Shown piece after piece: positions 51,434 through 64,000 of a DNA stretch of 64,000 nucleotides. Each line of letters starts with the position of its first letter. Positions within the stretch are counted from its first letter, which is position 1. The stretch lies in NCBI RefSeq assembly GCF_014647375.1, contig NZ_BMPB01000018.1:33904-97903 (forward strand). The letters are read 5' to 3'. Below the pieces are notes generated by a model, which worked only from the letters and a program-made list of their open reading frames with translations, was not told the DNA's origin and searched no databases. This DNA is from Parabacteroides faecis. Lineage in GTDB: Bacteria > Bacteroidota > Bacteroidia > Bacteroidales > Tannerellaceae. A program made the position numbers and the translations under genes.

Positions 51434-52903
51434 ATGTGGGATATGAATGGAAATTATAAATATATAGCGTTGCTGGCCTTGTTTTTTTCATGTTCGGATT
51501 CGGTTCAGGTTAGTGAAACATTGGATAGAAAGCCTGCCATCGTTCCTGATTATGCCGATATAACAATACCTGCTAATATTGCTCCTTTGAATTTTTCTTT
51601 GAAGGATTCTATGGAGGATGCTCAGGTCGTTTTGTCATACTCTGACCAGCGGATTGAAGTGAAGTCAAAGGATAACCAATTTGTTTTCCCAACCTCTAAA
51701 TGGAAGAGGCTTTTATCGTCTGCTGCAGGAAATGAGGTTGAGGTGGTTGTCCGGGTGAAAGAAAAAGGGAAATGGCTGGAATATGCGCCTGTCAAATGGA
51801 GCGTGGCAGCAGAACCGGTCGATCCTTACATCGCTTACCGCCTGATTGCTCCGGGATATACTTTATGGAACAAGATGGGACTTTATCAGCGTGACCTGGA
51901 GAGCTATACGGAGACTCCGATCATCGAGAATAAAATGAGCGGCAGAAACTGTGTGAATTGTCATTCGTTCTGTATGCAAAATCCCGATAAGATGTTGTTC
52001 CATATGCGTGAAACATATCCGGGAACGATCCTGGTAGATGGGGATAAGATCGAGAAACTGAATACGAAAACGGAGCAAACGATTTCATCTTTGGTATATC
52101 CGTCCTGGCATCCTTCCGGAAAGTATGTGGCATTTTCCGTAAACAATACCAAACAGGGGTTCCATGCAAATGACAGGAACCGTATAGAAGTGTTCGATGA
52201 GGCTTCCGACGTGGTTGTATATGACGTGGTGAAACATGAAATTGTCACCACGGCCAAATTATTCTCGAAGGATGCTTTTGAAACTTTCCCGACGTTTTCT
52301 CCGGATGGAAAGACTCTTTATTTCTGTACGGCTGCCGCACGTCCTATTCCGAAAGAATATTCCGAGGTGAAATATAATTTGTGTTCTATCGGGTTTGATC
52401 CCGAAACCCGGAGTTTCGGTTCGGTAGTCGATACTTTATATAATGCGACTGTTTCAGGGCAAAGTGCTTCTTTCCCCCGTGTATCTCCGGATGGAAAACA
52501 TGTAATGTATACAGTATCCGGATATGGTAATTTTTCTATTTGGCATAAAGATGCCGATCTGTATATGGCAGATTTGTCAACCGGAGAAAGTGTACCGTTG
52601 GATATTTTGAATAGCGATGATGTAGAGAGTTATCATTCCTGGAGCAGTAACAGCCGTTGGGTTATCTTCAGCAGCCGCCGGATAGACGGATTATATACCC
52701 GCCCTTATATAGCTTATATAGATGAAAACGGAAAGGCTTGTAAACCTTTTCTGCTGCCTCAAAAAGATACCGGATTTTATGACCGTTTTATGATGTCCTA
52801 TAATATTCCGGAATTCATTACCGGAAAGGTGAAAGTAGGAGGGAGAGTCCTGGGATTAAAGGCTAAGGAAGATAAAGGTATCGATGTGAAGTTTGCGAAA
52901 TAA
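51434..52903 (+). CDS. PD40 beta-propeller lipoprotein with CxxCH motif
   Basis: The 489-residue protein begins with a lipoprotein signal (YIALLALFFSCSDS, lipid Cys near residue 19). An N-terminal fibronectin-like region (residues about 40-130) is followed by a CVNCH heme-c-like motif and then TolB/PD40 blades (YPSWHPSGKYVAFSV, FPTFSPDGKTLYFC, FPRVSPDGKHVMYTV, YHSWSSNSRWVIFSS). It is a close paralog of the partial gene at 3-1022. ATG 51434 is used; ATG 51443 is an alternative. A heme-binding or metal site on an exposed propeller is inference. Confidence 0.83.
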   Translation: MWDMNGNYKYIALLALFFSCSDSVQVSETLDRKPAIVPDYADITIPANIAPLNFSLKDSMEDAQVVLSYSDQRIEVKSKDNQFVFPTSKWKRLLSSAAGNEVEVVVRVKEKGKWLEYAPVKWSVAAEPVDPYIAYRLIAPGYTLWNKMGLYQRDLESYTETPIIENKMSGRNCVNCHSFCMQNPDKMLFHMRETYPGTILVDGDKIEKLNTKTEQTISSLVYPSWHPSGKYVAFSVNNTKQGFHANDRNRIEVFDEASDVVVYDVVKHEIVTTAKLFSKDAFETFPTFSPDGKTLYFCTAAARPIPKEYSEVKYNLCSIGFDPETRSFGSVVDTLYNATVSGQSASFPRVSPDGKHVMYTVSGYGNFSIWHKDADLYMADLSTGESVPLDILNSDDVESYHSWSSNSRWVIFSSRRIDGLYTRPYIAYIDENGKACKPFLLPQKDTGFYDRFMMSYNIPEFITGKVKVGGRVLGLKAKEDKGIDVKFAK

Positions 52904-52953
52904 AGATTTATTCCTGTAGAAGTAATTACTGAATATAAATAAGTCGGAAAAAT

Positions 52954-52996
52954 AAAACCGGTAAACCAGATGGTCAATCTGAAGTTTACCGGTTTT
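52954..52996. terminator. Bidirectional terminator after PD40 gene
   Basis: AAAACCGGTAAAC / GTTTACCGGTTTT arms, 13 bp, with inner CAGAT / ATCTG pairing, between convergent genes. Confidence 0.85.
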
Positions 52997-53029
52997 ATTT
53001 TTAGTGAATATATAATTTATGTTTTTACA

Positions 53030-54598
53030 TTATCTATTTCCGCCAGCCCACCAAACTTGTTCTGAGTAAATATATTGACCATCTCCATAGGCAGCTTTTA
53101 CTTCCGGGTTAGCAGATGTGTCACTATTTCCGTAAGGACAACGGATTGGGAATTTTTTTGTGTTCTTGAATGCATAGAAATCTTTACCTTCTGCTTTTAA
53201 ACGACGTACATCGTTGAAAGATTCTGTGGCTTCTCCGGAAGCTCCCCAGAAAGCGAAATATTTTTGCAACATAACTTCTTTTAAAGGATCGATAGCAAAC
53301 AGCGGTTTCACATTTGCTTCAAAATAACTGTTGGCTGCTTCTTCCGTCAAAGCTTGTGATGTAACAGTTATGTTTGAACCTAATGTAGTGATAGCCGAAG
53401 CTACACTGTTTTCCGTATTAAGAATAGCACTTGACACAGCTTCTTTTAATGCAGCTTCTGCTTCCGATGTACGGTTTAAGCGGCTAAGAGCTTCCGCTTC
53501 CAGGAATTTTATTTCATGGAAACTTAATAATAAAGTGGGAGCTGTTCCTGAATAAACAAATGCTGAAACACCATATTTTTGCATATTTTGTTCCGGAGTA
53601 CCATTAGGAGCAGGAACATAATTGGGATCGGAAGCTCCGGTAACCTGAATACGCTTTCCTCCTTGAGTCGGAGATAATATAACACGGGTAAAACGCGGGT
53701 CTTTGCGTTCGCTAAGTTTTGCACCTAAACTTTCACTGTTTGCAAAAGCTGCACGTGATGCAAAAAATCCGTAGAATGGGTTGATGTTGTTTACATCATA
53801 GACAGCAAAGGCTGCCTGGTCCGCTGCAGAAGAAAATGATTTAGCTGTGTATTCTAATACTTTTTTCAGATCTCCATCCTTGTCGGATGAGCGGTTGAGT
53901 AAACGCATTGTATAACGAGCTTTCAGACCATAAGCAAATTTCAACCATTTTCCGGCATCGCCACCGTAAAGTAAATCGTAGTTTCCTAATGGGGAGAGAT
54001 CTTCTTTTTGCAGGTTGACGATCGCATCATCCAATAATGTCATTATTGTTGCATAAATTTCTTCCTGTTTATCGATTTTAGGAGTCATGTACAGTGGAGA
54101 ACCGTTTTCGTCGACAACGGCAGCTTCACTATAAGGCGTATCACCAAACATATCAGTTAATAATGCAGAGTTATAAGCAGCCATAACTTCAGCAGCACCT
54201 TTAGTAATATAATTTCCTTCGTCGCGGCCACCTTCGTTACACTGATTGATAATTATACGTGCATTCTTCAAAGAGGTATATGTTCCACTCCAGATATTAT
54301 TGAATGTAGATGCGGCAGACGGTTCGTTTAGGCGAGTTTCTGCATTGTATAATTGGTTGTCGATACCTACTTCATATTCAATATAAGATGAGAAATAAGT
54401 ATTGAAGTCTCCTCCTACATTAGAAAAAGCTGTAGAAGTAATAACATCTGTCATGATGAATTTGCCTTCTACACTGTTTGTATGGCTGGTATCTTTGTTG
54501 ATATTATCCATGATATCTTCTGAACAGGCGGAAAATATCAGGGAGAAAGATACGACAGTCAAAGTTTTTAAGGAACCTATAATTGTTTTCATATTCAT
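53030..54598 (-). CDS. SusD/RagB-family lipoprotein (SusD_2 type)
   Basis: The 522-residue protein has a lipobox near SLIFSACSEDIMDN. Its body shows SusD_2-type blocks: SSYIEYEVGIDNQLYN, NARIIINQCNEGGR, MAAYNSALLTDMFGDTPYSEA, FAYGLKARYTMRLLNRS and EIKFLEAEALSRLNRTSEAEAALKEAV. It lies 11 bp downstream of the N-terminally truncated susC at 54610 and would be silent with it unless transcribed independently. No hydrolase gene accompanies the pair. Confidence 0.9.
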   Translation of the reverse strand: MNMKTIIGSLKTLTVVSFSLIFSACSEDIMDNINKDTSHTNSVEGKFIMTDVITSTAFSNVGGDFNTYFSSYIEYEVGIDNQLYNAETRLNEPSAASTFNNIWSGTYTSLKNARIIINQCNEGGRDEGNYITKGAAEVMAAYNSALLTDMFGDTPYSEAAVVDENGSPLYMTPKIDKQEEIYATIMTLLDDAIVNLQKEDLSPLGNYDLLYGGDAGKWLKFAYGLKARYTMRLLNRSSDKDGDLKKVLEYTAKSFSSAADQAAFAVYDVNNINPFYGFFASRAAFANSESLGAKLSERKDPRFTRVILSPTQGGKRIQVTGASDPNYVPAPNGTPEQNMQKYGVSAFVYSGTAPTLLLSFHEIKFLEAEALSRLNRTSEAEAALKEAVSSAILNTENSVASAITTLGSNITVTSQALTEEAANSYFEANVKPLFAIDPLKEVMLQKYFAFWGASGEATESFNDVRRLKAEGKDFYAFKNTKKFPIRCPYGNSDTSANPEVKAAYGDGQYIYSEQVWWAGGNR

Positions 54599-54609
54599 TT
54601 CTTTAACTA

Positions 54610-57600
54610 TTAGAATTTCACATTGACACCGAATCCGTAGCTGGAAGTTCCCGGAAGAGAGAAACGTTCAAATGCTCCGGCCATATTATTATTACCTAAT
54701 GTCGCTTCAGGATCGAATCCTTTTATTTCAGACCAAACAATGATATTACGTGCAAATACATTTACGTTTACATTCAGGTTATTCTTGTTATAAACCGGAT
54801 AACTTAATGCTATTTCGCGTAATTTCAGGAATGAGTTGTCATAAATATAAGCTTCGTCTATACCTCTTACCGTACGGAAATAAGTTTCTGCATTTTCTCC
54901 GGAAACATGGATATCATTCGGTGCATATCCGGTTACATTTCCACTAGCGTCTTTAACCTCTTTTACTGAGTTTTTTCCAAAAGTGAACCCGTTTTTACGA
55001 TAGTCGGCAGACAGTTGGCTAACGCCATAGAAGTTTTGCTCTCCGGCTGTACCGCTATACATCTGACCTCCCTGTTTCCAGTCGAATACTGCTGATAGAC
55101 GGAACTTATAAAGTTCTATGGTTGTACTGAAACCTAGACGGAAGTCTGGAGACACTTTTCCGATCACGGCTTCTTCACCAGCCTGCGGCATACCGTTTTC
55201 ATCGACTACAATTTGTCCGGCTTCGTTGCGTAAGTAACTTACACCATATACTACCGGGAACTTATCTTTGATACCGGCACGTACCTGTGGAGTTACGAAT
55301 CCGCCCAACATAATGCTTTCTACTCCAGGAGCCAGCTCGTCTACATAGTTGTCTATTTTGGAGAAGTTGAATGCAAAATCAAGTTTGAAGTCTTTTGTAT
55401 CAACAGGAGAAATTCCGAGTGTGAGTTCATGTACGTTTGAGTGCATTTTACCACCGTTCATCATCATACTGCTTGAACCGGTCGAACCGGCCAATGGAAC
55501 TTCAAATATCTGATCCGTTACATTTTGTCTGGAGAATGTATAATTCAAAGAGAATAAGCCATTCAGGAATGTAAGATCGGCACCGATTTCGTATGATTTT
55601 GTATTCTGAGGTTTCAGATTAGGATCATAAACGACATAATAAGGAATATACGACATGACACCATTCAAAGGATACATGATGGGAGTACCCTGGAAGAAAC
55701 CACCGCCATATCCGGGTGTGTAATAATATGTCGGCACATATTCACCTGCCATACCTACTTCTGCGTATGATGCACGTATTTTACCAAATGTCAGGATATC
55801 GTTTTTCAGCGGTTCTAGTTCTGTGAATACCCATCCTAAAGATACTGACGGATAGAAGAAAGAACGGTTGCCACGTGGCATAGACGATACGATATCATTA
55901 CGTCCTGTTACATTAAAATACAACATGTTTTTCCAGGCTAATGACAGGCTCGCAAAATTACCGACTGTACGTTTTCTGGAATAAGAAGCTGATGAGCTAT
56001 ATACAGAAGCATTGTTCAGATGATTCCATCCCGGAAAGTTGAAGTTATATCCTTCCGCCATCGTATCTTTGATGCGTTTGTCAACTAACTCATTACCCAG
56101 TAAGGCATCAAAATTGAAATCATCATTAATATGCCAGTTGTAGGTGAAAGTCAATAGAGAGTTCATTTCATTTACGGTAAAACCATAATCACGGGCATAG
56201 CCTAATCCCGTTCCTGTACCTGTACTTCCATAACCATAAATATCGAGATAGCTTGTTGTATAGGCATCGTCTCCAAGTTGGTATTTGATATCGAGTTTAT
56301 GATCCTCTGTATTGAATTTAGTTGAATATTTTAAGAATGCATTTCCGAAAAAGCGTTGTGAACGTTCGGTAAAAGAGTTGTTGTCGACGGCCCAGTTTGC
56401 ATCGTCAATCCAACCTTCGCGGAAAGTATTTTGTGTATATGGATCGCCTTCGATATGTGCAGGAATTCCGGCCATATTATAACTGATAGGTGCAGTATAT
56501 ACGGTTGCTGTGACACCATCGTTGGCTGTACCTTGTTTTTTTATTTTTGATGTTACAAAATTACCAGTGAAACCTGTTGTCCAGTTTTCGTGTAATTTGG
56601 CTTCACCTGATAATTTGGCATTGTAACGGTTCATGCCTGTTGATGGTACGATACCGTCTGAATGGGTATTACCTAACGAGAATGCGTAGTTTCCTTTATC
56701 GAAAGCCTGCGCAACGTTTACCGAGTTACTCCAGGTTACACCTGTATTATAAAAATCTTTTGCATTATTATATGCCTGAGGCGTTGCCCAGGGATCTAAA
56801 CCGGCGGCAGCACGTTGAGCCACATAATATTGACCTTGGTGTAAACCGTCTTTGGTGTATGCGTTCTGAACATTACCACCATAAACGGGATCGTTTGCTA
56901 AATCTGAAATTTTAGGTCCCCAACTGAAACCTGAATACGGATTGAAATTTCCTGTAGTACCTTGTGCAAATTCACTTTGTAATTCAGGTAATGTTGCGAT
57001 TTTATCAAAAGCTACATTTGTACTGAAGGAAACTTGCGGTTTACCTTTCTTTGCCCCTCTACCACTTTTTGTTGTGATGACGATCACACCATTGGAGGCA
57101 CGCATACCATACAATGCTGATGCTGCTTGTCCTTTCAGGATATTGATACTTTCAATATCATTCGGGTCTAGGTCGACTGCACGGTTTGCATAGTCAGTAC
57201 CGGCAACACTTCCTGTATTCATGTTATCTGTGTTCACATCGGATGTAGAGGCGATAGGCATACCATCTATGACATATAATGGAGTATTATCTCCGGTGAA
57301 AGAACGTGAACCACGAATAGTGATTTTGGATGATGCACCAGGCATACCGGAAGACGGTGCAATGTCAATACCTGAAACCTTTCCTTGTAAAGCTCCGGCT
57401 AAGTTTGTATTTGCTGCTTGAGTCAATTCTTCGGATTTCACGTCTTGCACAGCATATCCTAACGCTTTTTTCTCTTTGGAAATCCCCATCGCTGTAACAA
57501 CGATTTCAGAAAGGTTTTGAGTATCAGACGTTAGTCTGATGTTTAGAACTGGTTGAACAGCGACTTCCTGGCTTTTCATACCTACGTACGAAACTACCAG

Positions 57601-57615
57601 AGTCTTTGCAGAACT
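54610..57615 (-). pseudogene. 5'-truncated susC, probably a silent exchangeable cassette
   Basis: The reading frame gives plug and barrel of a SusC receptor (SEIVVTAMGISKEKKALGYAVQDV at the start, GVNVKF at the end) but no signal peptide and no complete carboxypeptidase-regulatory-like domain. Read upstream of the first ATG (57579), the frame continues through SSAKTLVVSYVG, like the other susC, then meets a stop a few codons later (TAA near 57624). Homology ends exactly at a codon boundary, 57615, at the end of a 21-bp block identical to the susC at 60950. No CAAAnnTA promoter is seen in the 250 bp upstream. It is probably a silent cassette that can gain an expressed 5' end by recombination, though a plain deletion is possible. 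Confidence 0.8.
57595..57615 (-). other. Putative recombination core, copy 1 (susC 5' junction)
   Basis: These 21 bp (minus-strand AGTTCTGCAAAGACTC... at its start) are identical to 63938-63958. On the susC side the next 18 bp match 15 of 18 and then diverge. On the other side similarity stops at once, with an acgcgcgct sequence in place of the coding sequence. A site-specific recombination site or homologous crossover point is the best explanation. Confidence 0.7.
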
Positions 57616-57778
57616 ACGCGCGCTGTTAAATTATTGATTAATAGCATGTTATGTGTTTATATATTATTTGTTTATTAATATGGAAAATACATTTGTTAGA
57701 GATTTATTATTAAACTGAAAGTGTATTTTCGTGTTGATTATCAGCGAATTGATATACTATTGAAATTAGATATAATAA

Positions 57779-57827
57779 ATCGGGTAGAATTTGATATTAA
57801 AATATAAACACTCAAATTCTACCCGAT
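57779..57827 (-). terminator. Terminator after AAA ATPase gene
   Basis: ATCGGGTAGAATTTGA / TCAAATTCTACCCGAT, a perfect 16-bp stem with a 17-nt loop and AT-rich tail on the minus strand, 38 bp after the ATPase stop. Another inverted repeat (GAAAATACA / TGTATTTTC, 57682-57730) and a plus-strand TACATTTG box (57688-57695) lie between it and the truncated susC. Confidence 0.75.
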
Positions 57828-57864
57828 ATACAAGGTTTTCTAACTGTTTAACAAAGTGGGAAAG

Positions 57865-59076
57865 TTATTTGAATTCCATCAAAAATTTGCGGATCGGGAT
57901 CTGTTTTATTCCTTCATATGAACTACCCTCTATTTCATCCATTGTAATAACCATCTTAGGATAATTGTCCTTTATTGCTAAGAGGTTTCCAAATTCACGC
58001 TCATAAGTTTTAGGATCCATTACAGAGTAGGCTACTTGTATATATATTTTTTCTCCATCTTTCACACCAACGAAGTCTATTTCTTTATCTCCATCCCTTC
58101 CTACCGATAAAGTGTAGCCGTTGACAAGAAGATGATGGCATACAATATTCTCTAAGACTTGTGCTATATCGTTTGCTCTGAAAGGACGGATCGCATGTCG
58201 AATCCCCAAATCTTCAAAATAATATTTTTCTCCGATTTGAAACTGACGTTTTCCCTGGATATCTGACGGACGTAACCTTTTTACAAAGTAAGCATTATTC
58301 AGATAATTCAAGTATTCTAATATGGTTTTAGGAGGCAAATCGACACGTTGAGATTTAAGGTACTCGCTTATCTTATTGGCTGAAAACAAATTACCAATCG
58401 TATCAGCCAAATATATTGTTAAATCCTGCAACTGTCTGACATTCCTTATACTATATCTATTTACTACATCCTTAAGTATAATTGTATCATAAATACTTCG
58501 TAAATAATCCGAAACCAGTAATTCATTAAAAGGTAGATTTATTAAATATGGTAAACCTCCAAACTTATAAAACTTAGTGAAAGAATCGGAACTATCTTCC
58601 AACTTATGAAACAGTAAGAACTCTTTATAAGTCAAACTATATATTTTAAATTCGATGTACCGACCGCTTAAATAGGTTGCCAATTCACTTGAAAGCATAT
58701 TAGCATTACTTCCAGTACAATATATATCATAACTTCCTTCTGCAAAGAAATGTCGCAGTGCTTTCTCAAAACTCGCAATATCCTGTACCTCATCAATAAA
58801 CAAAAAACATTTATTGTTCGGATCATTACGTTTCTGTGTTACATAATTTATCAGATCTGCATAGTCTTTTAAGCTGTCGAATTCAAACAATTCTTTATTA
58901 ATATAGATTATATCCGAAAGCGGGTATGAGATGCGTATATAATCCATTAATTGGAAAAGAAGAAAACTTTTTCCAACACGACGTTGGCCGGTCAGAACTT
59001 TTATCATCTGTGTATTGACAAATGGTTTGATACGATCAAGATATAAATCTCTATTATAGAACTCCGGAGTTTTCAT
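57865..59076 (-). CDS. AAA_14/DUF4143-type ATPase
   Basis: The 403-residue protein has an N-terminal AAA domain with Walker A LTGQRRVGKSFLLFQL and Walker B CFLFIDEVQDI, and a C-terminal DUF4143-like nuclease-fold part (QIGEKYYFEDLGIRHAI...DGDKEIDFVG). Such genes occur in many copies in Bacteroidetes and have no firm function. It is a lone gene between two SusC/SusD pairs, with its own promoter (CAAATATA 59106-59113) flanked by two palindromes and its own terminator. Confidence 0.87.
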   Translation of the reverse strand: MKTPEFYNRDLYLDRIKPFVNTQMIKVLTGQRRVGKSFLLFQLMDYIRISYPLSDIIYINKELFEFDSLKDYADLINYVTQKRNDPNNKCFLFIDEVQDIASFEKALRHFFAEGSYDIYCTGSNANMLSSELATYLSGRYIEFKIYSLTYKEFLLFHKLEDSSDSFTKFYKFGGLPYLINLPFNELLVSDYLRSIYDTIILKDVVNRYSIRNVRQLQDLTIYLADTIGNLFSANKISEYLKSQRVDLPPKTILEYLNYLNNAYFVKRLRPSDIQGKRQFQIGEKYYFEDLGIRHAIRPFRANDIAQVLENIVCHHLLVNGYTLSVGRDGDKEIDFVGVKDGEKIYIQVAYSVMDPKTYEREFGNLLAIKDNYPKMVITMDEIEGSSYEGIKQIPIRKFLMEFK

Positions 59077-59082
59077 TTTTTA

Positions 59083-59138
59083 TTACTTATAAGTAAAACC
59101 AAAAGCAAATATAGTGCTTTTATTTCTTATAAGAAATA
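59083..59138 (-). promoter_or_regulatory. ATPase promoter flanked by two palindromic operator-like sites
   Basis: TTACTTATAAGTAA (59083-59096) and TATTTCTTATAAGAAATA (59121-59138) are perfect palindromes sharing the core CTTATAAG, with centres 40 bp apart (about four helical turns). Between them is the minus-strand -7 box TATATTTG (59106-59113). One palindrome covers the region from the start site toward the ATG (59076), the other the -33 region, a typical arrangement for a repressor-bound loop. Confidence 0.7.
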
Positions 59139-59213
59139 GATACTACTTGTAATTAAAGTTATTTGGTTATCTGATATCCTTCACTGAGTAGGGGGAACAT
59201 GCTTGGGCGAACA

Positions 59214-59247
59214 AAAAAAGAAGGCATCCCGGAGGACACCTTCTTTT
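59214..59247 (-). terminator. Terminator after susD at 59269
   Basis: On the minus strand AAAAGAAGGTGTCC / GGATGCCTTCTTTTTTT with a short CCGG-containing loop: stem plus T run, immediately after the susD stop. Confidence 0.85.
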
Positions 59248-59268
59248 CTATAATATTGCAAATTCTAA

Positions 59269-60930
59269 TTAGTCAACAACTCCATCAGTCAGACCTGCAC
59301 CTTCACCACTCTGTGGTAATGTACCTTCATTATTATTGTCTGATTCCGAAATACCGTTGTTTGCATTAATTTCATTACGCGGGATACGCATCAGCAACCA
59401 ACCGTTGTTGGCAGCCAAATTAAATTTGAATCCATCCGGGAAGTTACTCTCGACACGATTGTTGAAACGAACAACATTTTTCTGAAGACGTAGGATATCA
59501 AATAAAGCAAATCCTTCTCCCCACAATTCAACACGGCGCTGCATCCATACTTCATCCTGGAATCCTGTAGCAGAAGTAGCTTTGCTTGTATAAGACGGAT
59601 CACGATAATTCTTTACGAAATCTTCCAGAATACGTTTTCCACCACCGAGATCTCCGCTCATAGCTTTGGCTTCAGCCTGGATCAGGATCATTTCTTCTGC
59701 ACGCATCATACACCAGTCACCGGCATTGATGTTATTCCCCAAAATACCCTGATAAGCACCAAACTTAACGTTTGTATAAGGAAGATATGCCATTTTTACA
59801 TCAGGAACTACCAACGGTCCGATAGGTTGTCCATCGTAGCCTCTCCAAGATACATTTTTCAGGTTCGGAGAATCCAGTTTTTCATCTACCCACCATCCTT
59901 TTCTTACATCCGTATCTGGTATCTTCGTATAAAGCAGCGTATTGATCATTTTATAACATCCAACACCACAAGAATATGAATCACCAGAGAAAGAAGAAAT
60001 CACAGAAGGCCATGAAGGATAAGCATCCGGCATATTGGTCGGAGTCAGAATCAATGCCCACATCCAGTTATGGTCATTAGAATCAACGAACCCCGGTTTG
60101 CTTACTTCATCACGGCTATAAGGTGTATATCCGCCTAATGCATTTGTTGCATCTTCATAAGCAGCAGCCCAGTTTTGCATAACCAGATTTGCACGAGCGC
60201 GAAGTCCATAAGCCACATTCTGATCGATCTCGTTTTTAGACTTTCTGTTGTATCCTTCCAACAAAGGAATTGCTGTATTCAGGTCGTCCATGATCAAGTC
60301 ATATACTTCTTGAACAGATGCACGCGGATTATTCAACAGATCACCTTCTACCTTATCTGTTACAATCGGAACAGCCGGCTTACTTTCATTTCCTTTATAA
60401 GTGAACTGATACTGCTGAACCAGTGTCAGATAATCAAATGCACGGGTTGCGATAGCTTGTGCCTTATAGTAATTAAGTGTTTTATCCGTATTATCTTCCG
60501 GGATAGTGGCGATAATATCGTTAGCCATTTTAATCTGGTTGTAAATCATAGCCCAACGCATATTCGGATTTGCATAATTATATATTCTATCCGCATATTC
60601 ACTGGCAACGGAGAACCAGTTATATCCACTGGCATCACTCACCATGTCCGCTCCATTCAAATCCAGCGACAAACAAGCTGCCGGATAACCGAAGTCGTCA
60701 TCACGTGGATTATCTTCACCATACACACAATACTGTTTACCGATTGAAAAGTACATACCGCTCAAATCGGCTGCTACACGTTCGGGAATTGCTTCCGCTA
60801 TTTCCTGTTTCTGGTCAGAAGTAGAATTTCCGCCTTCGGGTTGTGTATCCAGATCTGTACAAGAGGCAGTTGCCAAAACCAGTCCCGGAATTAATATCCA
60901 TGATTTATTTATAAATTTCATAATCTTCAT
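59269..60930 (-). CDS. SusD/RagB-family lipoprotein
   Basis: The 553-residue protein has a signal peptide with lipobox LVLATASC (Cys near residue 24). SusD features include ADLSGMYFSIGKQYCVYGEDN, MIYNQIKMANDIIATIPEDN, AQAIATRAFDYLTLVQQYQFTY and GLRARANLVMQNWAAAYEDATNAL, with a C-terminal RVELWGEGFALFDILRLQK. It pairs with the susC 19 bp upstream and would bind the nutrient at the surface. No associated hydrolase lies in the window. Confidence 0.92.
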   Translation of the reverse strand: MKIMKFINKSWILIPGLVLATASCTDLDTQPEGGNSTSDQKQEIAEAIPERVAADLSGMYFSIGKQYCVYGEDNPRDDDFGYPAACLSLDLNGADMVSDASGYNWFSVASEYADRIYNYANPNMRWAMIYNQIKMANDIIATIPEDNTDKTLNYYKAQAIATRAFDYLTLVQQYQFTYKGNESKPAVPIVTDKVEGDLLNNPRASVQEVYDLIMDDLNTAIPLLEGYNRKSKNEIDQNVAYGLRARANLVMQNWAAAYEDATNALGGYTPYSRDEVSKPGFVDSNDHNWMWALILTPTNMPDAYPSWPSVISSFSGDSYSCGVGCYKMINTLLYTKIPDTDVRKGWWVDEKLDSPNLKNVSWRGYDGQPIGPLVVPDVKMAYLPYTNVKFGAYQGILGNNINAGDWCMMRAEEMILIQAEAKAMSGDLGGGKRILEDFVKNYRDPSYTSKATSATGFQDEVWMQRRVELWGEGFALFDILRLQKNVVRFNNRVESNFPDGFKFNLAANNGWLLMRIPRNEINANNGISESDNNNEGTLPQSGEGAGLTDGVVD

Positions 60931-60949
60931 CTTTTTTGTTTACAATAAA

Positions 60950-63900
60950 TTAGAATGTAACACTGATACCTCCTGACAAACTACGGAGTGCAGAATATTT
61001 TGCACCTACGGCATCATCATTACCGAAGTATGCAACACCTAAGTTCTGGCGAGCATCAAGACCTTTTCTGGAAGCGATAAGTGCCACGTTATCTCCAGAG
61101 AAGAAGATACGCAAGTTATTTACCATAAATTTAGTTGTCCATTTTTTCGGGAATGTATATCCAACCATCACGCTATTCAAGCTCAAATAGTTAGAACTCT
61201 GAAGGAATCGCGAAGACAAATCCTGATTTCTCTTATCTGCACTGCTGATACGAGGGATATTGCTGCCTTTATTGGTTTCACTCCATGCATTCAAAATATC
61301 TTTGTGCCAGTTAGTACCTGCTGTATTTGCCTCACCACTGTGCATCAACTGTTGGTAAGAATAGTCATACACTTTACCACCCAATTGATAAGACAATCCT
61401 ACAGAAACGTCAAATCCGCGATATTGAACAGAAGTACCGAAACCTCCGTATATCTTAGGCAAAGTAGAACCTAAATCTGATTGCTTGGCAGCACTGAAAT
61501 CATCAGTAGTAGTCATGTCTCCATTATCCGGATCTACATAATATAAAGCCTTACCTGTTTCAGGATCAACGCCTGCATCTTTAACCAAATATGCGTTATA
61601 CAAAGAACCTCCGACATTACGGATAGTTACAGAACTCTTAATACCGCCATTATTCTTTGCTGTCTCTGCCAGATCAAGAATCTTGTTCTTATAATGAGTC
61701 ATGTTCAGATTGAATGACCATGTTAAATCTTTCGTTCTGATAATATCAGCATTCAAATCTAATTCAACACCTGCATTTCTCATAGAACCAACATTCATCG
61801 GGATCGTTGAATAACCTAATGAAATAGGCACCGGCTGGTTGTAAAGCAAATCGACTGTCTTACGGCTGAAATATTCGAAACTACCGCTCAATCTTTCTTT
61901 GAACAAGGTAAATTCAAGACCGGCATTAAAACTATATGAAGTTTCCCAGGTTATATCCTTATTACCTTTGTAAGTAAATGATGTTGCAAAATCACCAGCA
62001 CTGTTAGATACAGTATACTGATCTAAATAAGCATAATAGTTAGGAGTAATACCATCTGTAAGCAACAAGTTGTCATTACCTTGTACACCGTAACTGGCTT
62101 TTATCTTCAACAAGTCGATCCATGTAGCATCCAGATCCTTGAAGAACTCTTCCTTGTTCATCAACCACGCAGCACCAACACTACCGAAGTTACCCCAACG
62201 GTGATCCGGGTGGAAACGTGAAGAAGCATCGCGACGATAAGAAGCAGAAGCAAAATACTTTCCATCATAGTCATACTGAACACGAGCCAGAATACCGAGT
62301 GTAGAATAAGTATCCGTAGAGGAACTTACAGTCGGAGGTGTTTGGATAGCATTGCTAAGTTCACCAATGAACGGGTTATAAAGTTTTTTGTTTGAACCTT
62401 CCATTTTCTGGATTTTCAGATTATAAGATTCATAACCTACCAATGCGTCGATATTATGTGAACCGAAACTTTGCTTATAAGTAAGCAAATATTGCTGGTT
62501 CAAACCGATATTTCTTTCATTCTTAACATTTACATAACCTTCAGAACCAACAGCTCCGCCATAAAAAGGATTGTTCAGGATAGAACTTCTCTGGTTACTT
62601 GAATTTACACCGACATTTGCTGTAAACTGCAAGCCTTTATACAAATCAACGATTGCGTAAAATTTAGTATTCAATACATCTGTATATGCATGGAATTTAT
62701 CCAGTTCCAAAGTTACGCCCGGATTAGCCATAGGCATGAAAGGACGAACCTGACCTGTAGAGTTACCAAAGTCATAAACAGTATAACCGCGGTTATCCAC
62801 CTTTATGCTGCCGTCATTATTTCTTACATAGATCGGATAAACCGGAGCAATCAGGTCGGTAATATAGAAAAGGTTACCAGATGAACCCCATTTGTCCTGA
62901 GCATCCGGAGCCTTACTGTCATAATATGTATAAGCCATATTTGCACCAATCTTCAACCAGCTCTTTGCCTGGTAGTCTACTTTTGAACGGCCTGTATAAC
63001 GAGTAAAACCTGAACCGGAAATAATACCTGCATCATCCAGATAACCTAAAGAGAAATAATAATTGATCTTTTCAGAAGCACCTGATACTGTTGCGTTATA
63101 TTCCTGACGTAAATTTCCTTTATTAAAAGTATTATCATACCAGTCATCCGGTGTATAATAGTAAGAACCATCACTGTAACCTAATGTTGCATTAGGATTG
63201 ATACGACCGTCTGTACCGATAAAATCTTCCCCGTTAGGAGTAGTATAAACCTGATATCCTACTCCACCATTGTCTGAAGAGAAAATATTCTTCAATGCAT
63301 AAGCACGAGCATCCGCAGCACTTCCTCCGGCATAAGCTTTGCTGTTATACAGAGCCTTGTATGCTGTTTCATAATACATGGCAGGGTCTTTCATTACATT
63401 ATATTGAGGTACGGCACGTGAATTGCTACCCCATTTTGCATCGACAGTTACCACTGCTTCTCTGGCAGTACCTTTTTTAGTTGTAATCAATACAACACCA
63501 TTTGCACCACGTGCTCCGTAGATTGCACTGGCAGAAGCATCTTTCAGTACACTCATCGATTCGATATCGTTCGGGTTGATCGCTGCAATATCACCATCAT
63601 AAGGAACGCCGTCAACTACATATAAAGGAGAACTGCTAGAACTCATAGAACCAATACCACGGATACGGATAGTAGCTGCTTTTCCCGGTTGTCCGTTTGC
63701 ACTCACACCCTGTACACCGGCTACCTGACCAGCCAAAGCATTTGTAACGTTTGCAACCTGGCGTTCTGCAATCTTTTCTGCTTTCATTGTAGATGCAGAT
63801 CCTGTGAACGCTGATTTCTTTGCCGTACCGTAAGCTACGACCATTACTTCTTCCAAAGCCTGTGAACTGGACTCCAGTAGTACCCGCATTTTAGGCTTAA

Positions 63901-64000
63901 TTGCCAATTCTTGGGTTTCCATACCTACATATGAAATTACCAGAGTCTTTGCAGAACTTGGTACATCCAAAGAGAACGCACCATCAAAATCAGTAACTGT
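60950..64000 (-). CDS. SusC/RagA TonB-dependent receptor, 5'-partial (runs past window end)
   Basis: The frame is open to the last base. At the right edge it encodes TVTDFDGAFSLDVPSSAKTLVISYVG, the end of a carboxypeptidase-regulatory-like domain, so the N-terminus is intact at least here and continues beyond 64000. Downstream are the plug (ALEEVMVVAYGTAKKSAFTG...) and barrel ending GGISVTF. In contrast to the copy at 54610-57615, coding continues on both sides of the shared 21-bp block (63938-63958). It is followed by susD. Confidence 0.92.
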   Translation of the reverse strand, partial: TVTDFDGAFSLDVPSSAKTLVISYVGMETQELAIKPKMRVLLESSSQALEEVMVVAYGTAKKSAFTGSASTMKAEKIAERQVANVTNALAGQVAGVQGVSANGQPGKAATIRIRGIGSMSSSSSPLYVVDGVPYDGDIAAINPNDIESMSVLKDASASAIYGARGANGVVLITTKKGTAREAVVTVDAKWGSNSRAVPQYNVMKDPAMYYETAYKALYNSKAYAGGSAADARAYALKNIFSSDNGGVGYQVYTTPNGEDFIGTDGRINPNATLGYSDGSYYYTPDDWYDNTFNKGNLRQEYNATVSGASEKINYYFSLGYLDDAGIISGSGFTRYTGRSKVDYQAKSWLKIGANMAYTYYDSKAPDAQDKWGSSGNLFYITDLIAPVYPIYVRNNDGSIKVDNRGYTVYDFGNSTGQVRPFMPMANPGVTLELDKFHAYTDVLNTKFYAIVDLYKGLQFTANVGVNSSNQRSSILNNPFYGGAVGSEGYVNVKNERNIGLNQQYLLTYKQSFGSHNIDALVGYESYNLKIQKMEGSNKKLYNPFIGELSNAIQTPPTVSSSTDTYSTLGILARVQYDYDGKYFASASYRRDASSRFHPDHRWGNFGSVGAAWLMNKEEFFKDLDATWIDLLKIKASYGVQGNDNLLLTDGITPNYYAYLDQYTVSNSAGDFATSFTYKGNKDITWETSYSFNAGLEFTLFKERLSGSFEYFSRKTVDLLYNQPVPISLGYSTIPMNVGSMRNAGVELDLNADIIRTKDLTWSFNLNMTHYKNKILDLAETAKNNGGIKSSVTIRNVGGSLYNAYLVKDAGVDPETGKALYYVDPDNGDMTTTDDFSAAKQSDLGSTLPKIYGGFGTSVQYRGFDVSVGLSYQLGGKVYDYSYQQLMHSGEANTAGTNWHKDILNAWSETNKGSNIPRISSADKRNQDLSSRFLQSSNYLSLNSVMVGYTFPKKWTTKFMVNNLRIFFSGDNVALIASRKGLDARQNLGVAYFGNDDAVGAKYSALRSLSGGISVTF
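63938..63958 (-). other. Putative recombination core, copy 2 (inside susC)
   Basis: The 21 bp identical to 57595-57615, in the same orientation, coding SSAKTLV of the N-terminal domain. Same-orientation sites would delete or exchange about 6.3 kb. Inversion would need a partner in opposite orientation outside the window. Confidence 0.65.

Follow-up and report, generated by a model that had tools for sequence, protein, structure and literature searches.

Why does a gut bacterium keep a susC gene that lacks its start, next to a second susC that shares with it a short block of identical sequence? The question is raised by a 64,000-nucleotide stretch of Parabacteroides faecis DNA (the window), taken from contig C18 of an assembly of 6.66 Mb in 33 contigs. 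It holds two susC/susD pairs, susC1-susD1 and susC2-susD2, and susC1 is headless, meaning that the leader found on other copies is absent. The initial annotation had proposed a SusC/SusD rearrangement system at this place. We come to the same conclusion from material found outside the window, namely more copies of the shared site, oppositely facing cassettes, one promoter with its leader, and an adjoining tyrosine recombinase gene. We put at about 0.9 the probability that the locus is a multi-cassette shufflon, most likely with four susC/susD cassettes and one expression site. About half of the array falls within the window.

A common site within susC

The shared 21-bp block is real and exact, as first reported, and lies on the minus strand in both genes (core 1 and core 2; Table 1). 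When the whole genome was searched with up to two mismatches allowed, the block was exact at these two places and was found with two mismatches each at C5:83035 and C25:6119, and its reversed control gave no match. The core lies ~195 nt inside the susC gene and encodes the SusC motif SSAKTLVxSYVG. Taken alone, 21 bp might simply reflect conservation of SusC coding sequence (SSAKTLV). The argument for a shufflon instead rests on invariant third-codon positions, on the abrupt end of homology at the core, and on comparison across species.

Core sites were collected with up to two mismatches (31 in all), and the 30 with full upstream sequence were used: 8 leader-linked and 22 headless, the latter including the C5 site and a site in genome G038 that bears an N. 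The site at a contig end in genome G001 was dropped. Third-codon positions of the core are identical in 30/30 sites, a figure biased upward because the sites were picked by similarity to the core, whereas downstream third positions are 33-80% conserved, the ATG codon excepted. Upstream of the core, leader-linked copies are strongly conserved and headless copies much less so, a contrast that is free of this selection bias except that leaders were recognized by their sequence. The reverse complement of the core, AGTCTTTGCAGAACT, also fits AGTYYYN4GDACT, which is reportedly the repeat consensus of Nakayama-Imaohji 2009. By eye, several headless cores (L058 9253, L059 3197, L064 13919) have a TATTGATAATCA-like stretch ~20-30 nt upstream that was not seen upstream of leader-linked cores; it could be an accessory site or reflect a common origin.

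The window covers C18:33904-97903 and thus runs to the very end of this 97903-base contig, which comes 42 nt upstream of core 2. The neighboring susC that had been called intact is thus incomplete in the window, but it continues on contig C25 and is indeed linked to a leader. The minus strand of C25 (6893 bp) has a headless susC3, which starts with a core, along with susD3 and an ATPase gene. The plus strand holds the remainder of the susC leader and the promoter (ATG at L006 6741, a signal-peptide-like start, and a promoter box), running off the right contig end. The facing ends of C25 and C18 map to adjacent bases in P. goldsteinii (14232 and 14233 of G013rc) and likewise in P. gordonii (9890 and 9891 of G009rc), with the last base of C25 extrapolated in each mapping, and the junction is in frame (GTMVG followed by TVTDFDG). 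Contig C3 ends at 460550 within a headless susC5, which is followed by susD5, the tyrosine recombinase gene, and rarA-, serC-, and serA-like genes whose names were assigned by eye.

From left to right, the array most likely consists of the left flank, susD1-susC1 (left-facing), core 1, an ATPase gene, susD2-susC2 (left-facing), core 2, the leader and promoter (left-facing), core 3, susC3-susD3 with an ATPase gene (right-facing), core 5 (unassembled), susC5-susD5 (right-facing), and the recombinase gene. Core orientation is minus on C18 and, once the contigs are ordered, plus on C25, where the further copy beyond position 64000 sits beside the leader and promoter, much as the initial annotation had anticipated. 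The genes susC1, susC3, and susC4 (the last on C5) are headless at an assembled core, and susC5 is cut by the contig end near the same place. All susC/susD pairs but one are without promoter and start, with the start region of susC5 falling in the contig gap. For susC1, the absence of a start region is borne out by in-frame stop codons upstream of its core; the gene begins within the N-terminal region, and its first residues (MKSQEVAVQP) do not resemble a signal peptide by eye.

The leader itself is preceded by a recognizable promoter element. The promoter -7 consensus is TAnnTTTG, and a -7 box, TACATTTG, lies 96-108 nt before the leader ATG in P. faecis and in six of seven relatives, with TACCTTTG in the seventh. 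Because the site is ~195 nt inside the gene, the promoter and leader would move together.

Leader and polarity across Parabacteroides

An 18-nt core is exact in 10 of 39 genomes of the genus, P. faecis included, and the control was found in none of the 39. We compared the loci of the nine other core-bearing genomes. Two of these (G001 and G038) are broken by assembly boundaries, and both array flanks are on one contig in five of the nine (G009, G012, G013, G014, G015); in the stretches compared, only the side with the recombinase is available for G003, and no flank for G026. In G038, susC3 occurs twice in opposite directions near a contig end (L067/L068; G038:C7 ~1803700-1807516), possibly an assembly artefact of mixed arrangements.

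The seven contiguous relative loci carry 2 to 4 cores each and have both orientations in every case. Each of the seven has exactly one leader, and it stands where core polarity switches from minus to plus, which is what repeated inversion between opposite cores yields. Deletion, or homologous gene conversion between copies that face the same way, might instead account for the exchange of cassettes, given that cores 1 and 2 share one orientation, that core number varies between these species, and that a core in G014 is left without a susC body. We regard this as highly improbable: the C25 and C3 cassettes face the opposite way, the polarity switch at the leader is as expected from inversion alone, a recombinase gene adjoins the array, and a block this short is poorly suited to homologous recombination. 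The initial annotation had likewise taken the same-facing pair to allow deletion or multi-copy exchange rather than simple inversion, and this part is not supported. Both cassettes lie on one side of the expression site, and in the model described below inversion against the C25 and C3 cassettes would be enough.

The attachment of the leader also differs between species. The susC1 homologue in P. goldsteinii (70% amino acid identity, same flank) carries a leader, whereas susC1 is headless here. The two genes are 87% identical over the 60 nt downstream of the core and 26% identical over the 42 nt upstream, so the homology of susC1 ends at the core, which agrees with the abrupt end at the block that had been described for the window. 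Conversely, susC2 of P. faecis and susC1 of P. goldsteinii have the leader in common (98% over 42 nt) but differ downstream (63%).

These comparisons bear on the simplest alternative, that susC1 is a decayed pseudogene whose 5′ end was lost once and that the 21 bp are ordinary conserved coding sequence. The motif encoded by the block is in line with such decay, as is the fact that no promoter for susC1 was identified. Yet the 989-aa frame of susC1 is intact, several other susC genes are cut at or near the same site, the P. goldsteinii homologue is leader-linked, and the rule of one leader at the polarity switch is obeyed in all seven contiguous loci. We therefore consider the pseudogene explanation extremely improbable, and a deletion fixed in every related strain, named at the outset as an alternative, is unlikely on a comparison made between species.

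The recombinase and a model of inversion

In the shufflon that we propose, a single unit of promoter, ATG, signal peptide, and N-terminal extension would serve as the expression site, flanked by two groups of outward-facing cassettes. The susC of every cassette would start at a site of 15-21 bp within its coding sequence (codons SSAKTL), and crossover between oppositely facing sites would fuse the common leader in frame to another susC. In the arrangement as assembled, the leader is attached to susC2, not to susC1, susC3, or susC5. With core 5 and the C25-C3 join taken as given, a four-cassette model yields 12 arrangements by inversion between opposite cores, and each susC is on in some of them (susC2 and susC3 in 4 each, susC1 and susC5 in 2 each). 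No deletion has to be invoked in this model, since the cassettes missing from the window are oppositely oriented and all 12 arrangements follow from inversion.

The enzyme that most likely performs the crossover is encoded at the array edge (C3:454683-455846). The absence of a recombinase from the window, as first noted, is correct in that C18 has no PF00589 match, but this gene stands at the other end of the array. It is 93% identical to the P. goldsteinii gene, whose product has domains PF17293, PF13102, and PF00589. Residues R244, H333, R336, H359, and Y368, which we take to be catalytic, are invariant in 9/9 sequences, and a PDB search gave 10 distinct sequences, which are tyrosine recombinases and integrases of a general kind. 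Both in P. faecis and in 8/9 relatives, the gene adjoins the array.

A recombinase alignment search retained 80 loci, which are not equivalent to genomes (L103 and L104 are from one B. fragilis chromosome, and L111 and L112 from one B. salyersiae contig). At 38 of these loci, every one under a Bacteroidaceae-type record title, the recombinase is flanked by a minus core on the left and a plus core on the right and sits between a leader-linked and a headless core, with exactly one leader per locus. Cores were counted on one side only at eight loci. The recombinase is outside at four (P. goldsteinii, P. gordonii, P. chinchillae, and P. acidifaciens), and also at one of the eight, L089 (P. massiliensis), when the fuller G014 stretch is read. 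The remaining 30 have no core in a SusC frame within the DNA examined.

It is conceivable that the shufflon is real but is driven by another recombinase. The P. faecis genome has 22 PF00589 matches above the family cut-off, passages of one paper describe B. fragilis invertases that act on distant sites (PMC4747536), and the 30 loci just mentioned have a gene of the C3 type and no core in the DNA examined. Set against this, the gene adjoins the array in nearly all relatives, and relatives of it sit between opposite cores at 38 loci. We judge a different enzyme unlikely and think it quite probable that the C3 enzyme drives the shufflon.

The contig ends are also close to cores. The right end of C25 is 42 nt short of core 2; its left end is 42 nt short of core 5 and C3 begins ~63 nt after the first base of core 5, both values being extrapolated from G038 (by 3 and 16 bases, respectively), the second on a susC that is only 34% identical. 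The first base of a core coincides with a contig end in G001, and the G038 sequence has an N 12 nt upstream of a core. A 21-bp repeat alone should not break an assembly with k near 63. Graph branching at the core would cause breaks at -(63-21) = -42 and at +63, so the contig ends can be read as alternative junctions. This suggests, indirectly, that alternative junctions coexisted in the sequenced DNA and that inversion may have taken place in culture.

The extrapolations just given count against the shufflon reading, and so do several other points. The interpretation of contig ends presumes an assembler and a value of k, and the case for inversion here comes from assembled sequence. The exact core is absent from 29/39 genomes of the genus. 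The adjacency of C25 and C3, with no further cassette between them, is itself a presumption that leaves ~105 nt, including core 5, missing, and further cassettes may be on contigs trimmed of their cores. None of the 15 loci compared contains a close relative of susC5 (no aligned piece exceeds 37% amino acid identity). In G014, one of three cores, the one adjoining the recombinase gene (L062 7626), has no susC body behind it and is perhaps the remnant of a lost cassette. The 22 PF00589 matches and the 30 recombinase loci with no core belong on the same side.

Passenger genes, other switches, and related systems

Table 1. Features of the P. faecis window that relate to the array (positions count from the first base of the window).
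Feature	Position	Strand	Basis
susD1	53030..54598	-	
susC1, headless, presumably silent in this arrangement	54610..57579	-	
Core 1, recombination site at the 5′ end of headless susC1 (AGTTCTGCAAAGACTCTGGTA)	57595..57615	-	sequence search
Stretch preceding core 1, with no relation to the leader; contains a long hairpin (-28.7 kcal/mol) behind the ATPase gene	57616..57864	-	
AAA_14/DUF4143 ATPase carried in cassette	57865..59076	-	PADLOC candidate family PDC-S01, E 1.4e-145
Terminator-like hairpin followed by a T run, after susD2	59213..59243	-	fold of 59208-59250: -22 kcal/mol, z -6.8
susD2	59269..60930	-	position and similarity to susD of relatives; no NCBIfam match
susC2, attached to the expression site as assembled; extends beyond the contig end	60950..64000	-	TIGR04056
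Core 2, same site within susC2, joined to the leader in this assembly	63938..63958	-	sequence search
Shared leader, last 42 nt (TVTDFDGAFSLDVP)	63959..64000	-	remainder on C25

AAA ATPase genes are carried in susC/susD cassettes of P. faecis and of 6/9 relatives. The second such gene of the array (L006 168-1313, on C25) had no PADLOC family match. The idea of joint switching of the ATPase in the window, which matches a candidate phage-defence family, and its receptor is weakened by the strong terminator-like hairpin after susD2 and by a TATATTTG box before the ATPase gene. A sigma-70 scan of 57580-59400 was uninformative, with 13 promoter-like sites against 9.6 expected, and its terminator rule did not report the minus-strand hairpin. 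A Megablast comparison of 52900-58000 of the window with phage records gave no match.

The site is also found in simpler surroundings. At C5:83041-83523 (L005 8042-8524), a two-site leader/promoter switch with the site variant AGTCTGTGCAGAACT and a 25-bp arm, AGTCTGTGCAGAACTTGGTACATTT, precedes susC4 and is in the off orientation. The consensus introduced above matches 189 places in the genome, compared with 111 for the reversed pattern. Among the first 100 of the 189 there are many close inverted pairs, and among the first 100 of the 111 no two distinct places lie within 700 bp. We examined 20 stretches, nearly all chosen as looking paired, and 19 of them have a pair with matching spacer bases (L160-L179 except L163; e.g., C1:41588-41831, C5:362282-362547, and C8:132625-132925), with TAnnTTTG between the arms in 17 of the 19. 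A SusC-like frame is present at 13 of the 19 within the 4.5-7 kb examined, in a genome that is rich in SusC (224 matches), and by eye many of the loci are near susC, sigma/anti-sigma-like, or surface-protein-like genes. The 19 loci are a probable genome-wide set of invertible promoters.

It is tempting to speculate that one recombinase sets the four-cassette array, the C5 switch, and at least 19 scattered promoter switches, and that its gene moved from the invertible piece to a fixed flank, although we hold this proposal to be rather doubtful. If it were true, a large part of the outer-membrane transporter repertoire would be re-dealt by a single enzyme, and the fixed-flank position would free expression of the recombinase from the shuffle.

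Shufflons of this kind are already known. According to passages of two papers, Tsr0667 shuffles SusC/SusD genes in B. fragilis (PMC4747536, PMC11852207), acting on three clusters and nine other regions (PMC4747536). As far as these passages go, the Tsr0667 shufflons resemble the P. faecis array in having several susC/susD pairs, one tyrosine recombinase, and distant simple switches as well. B. fragilis Q1F2 has an identical 15-bp core, AGTTCTGCAAAGACT, in the same SSAKTL codons, with one leader-linked and two headless susC genes in the stretch compared, and its recombinase, which may not be BF0667 itself, is 57% identical to the C3 gene. The same shufflon appears mirrored near both ends of the Q1F2 chromosome record (L103 and L104; ~20-41 kb and 5163-5184 kb), which is a duplication or an assembly artefact. 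In contrast to the 38 Bacteroidaceae-type loci with the recombinase within, the gene here is outside the array, beside rarA. The cassettes here also carry AAA ATPase genes, a feature that those of B. fragilis may or may not share. The intergenic shufflon EE of B. fragilis NCTC 9343 is described in parts of two papers as having inverted repeats at ragA/susC starts, downstream of an invertible promoter (PMC5729914, PMC3090145), which is a similar layout. It belongs to another genus, and its repeats are described there as overlapping the start codon, unlike the site inside the gene seen here. Simple invertible promoters of Bacteroidales resemble the C5 switch and differ from the array in having two states and one susC.

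The Parabacteroides example, the position of its recombinase, and the ATPase passengers are points that we did not find described, in that no paper on a Parabacteroides SusC shufflon was found among open-licence PMC papers. This claim of absence is weak because of that scope and because P. distasonis inversion sites are on record in one paper, as excerpted (PMC5903667), and the species was part of an inversion survey, according to a portion of another (PMC10939037).

With variants, the core occupies the same codons in Bacteroides, Phocaeicola, and Parabacteroides loci, which makes it a simple search key across genera. In P. faecis, the contig ends, the headless genes, and the recombinase are joined into one testable map. 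This map suggests that active sites can interrupt short-read assemblies of such species, so that some of the repertoire may be mistaken for pseudogenes. That repertoire matters because SusC/SusD pairs decide which nutrients are taken up by a gut Bacteroidales cell. They have also been discussed, in passages of recent papers, as possible phage receptors (PMC12548429) and as T cell targets (PMC10939037).

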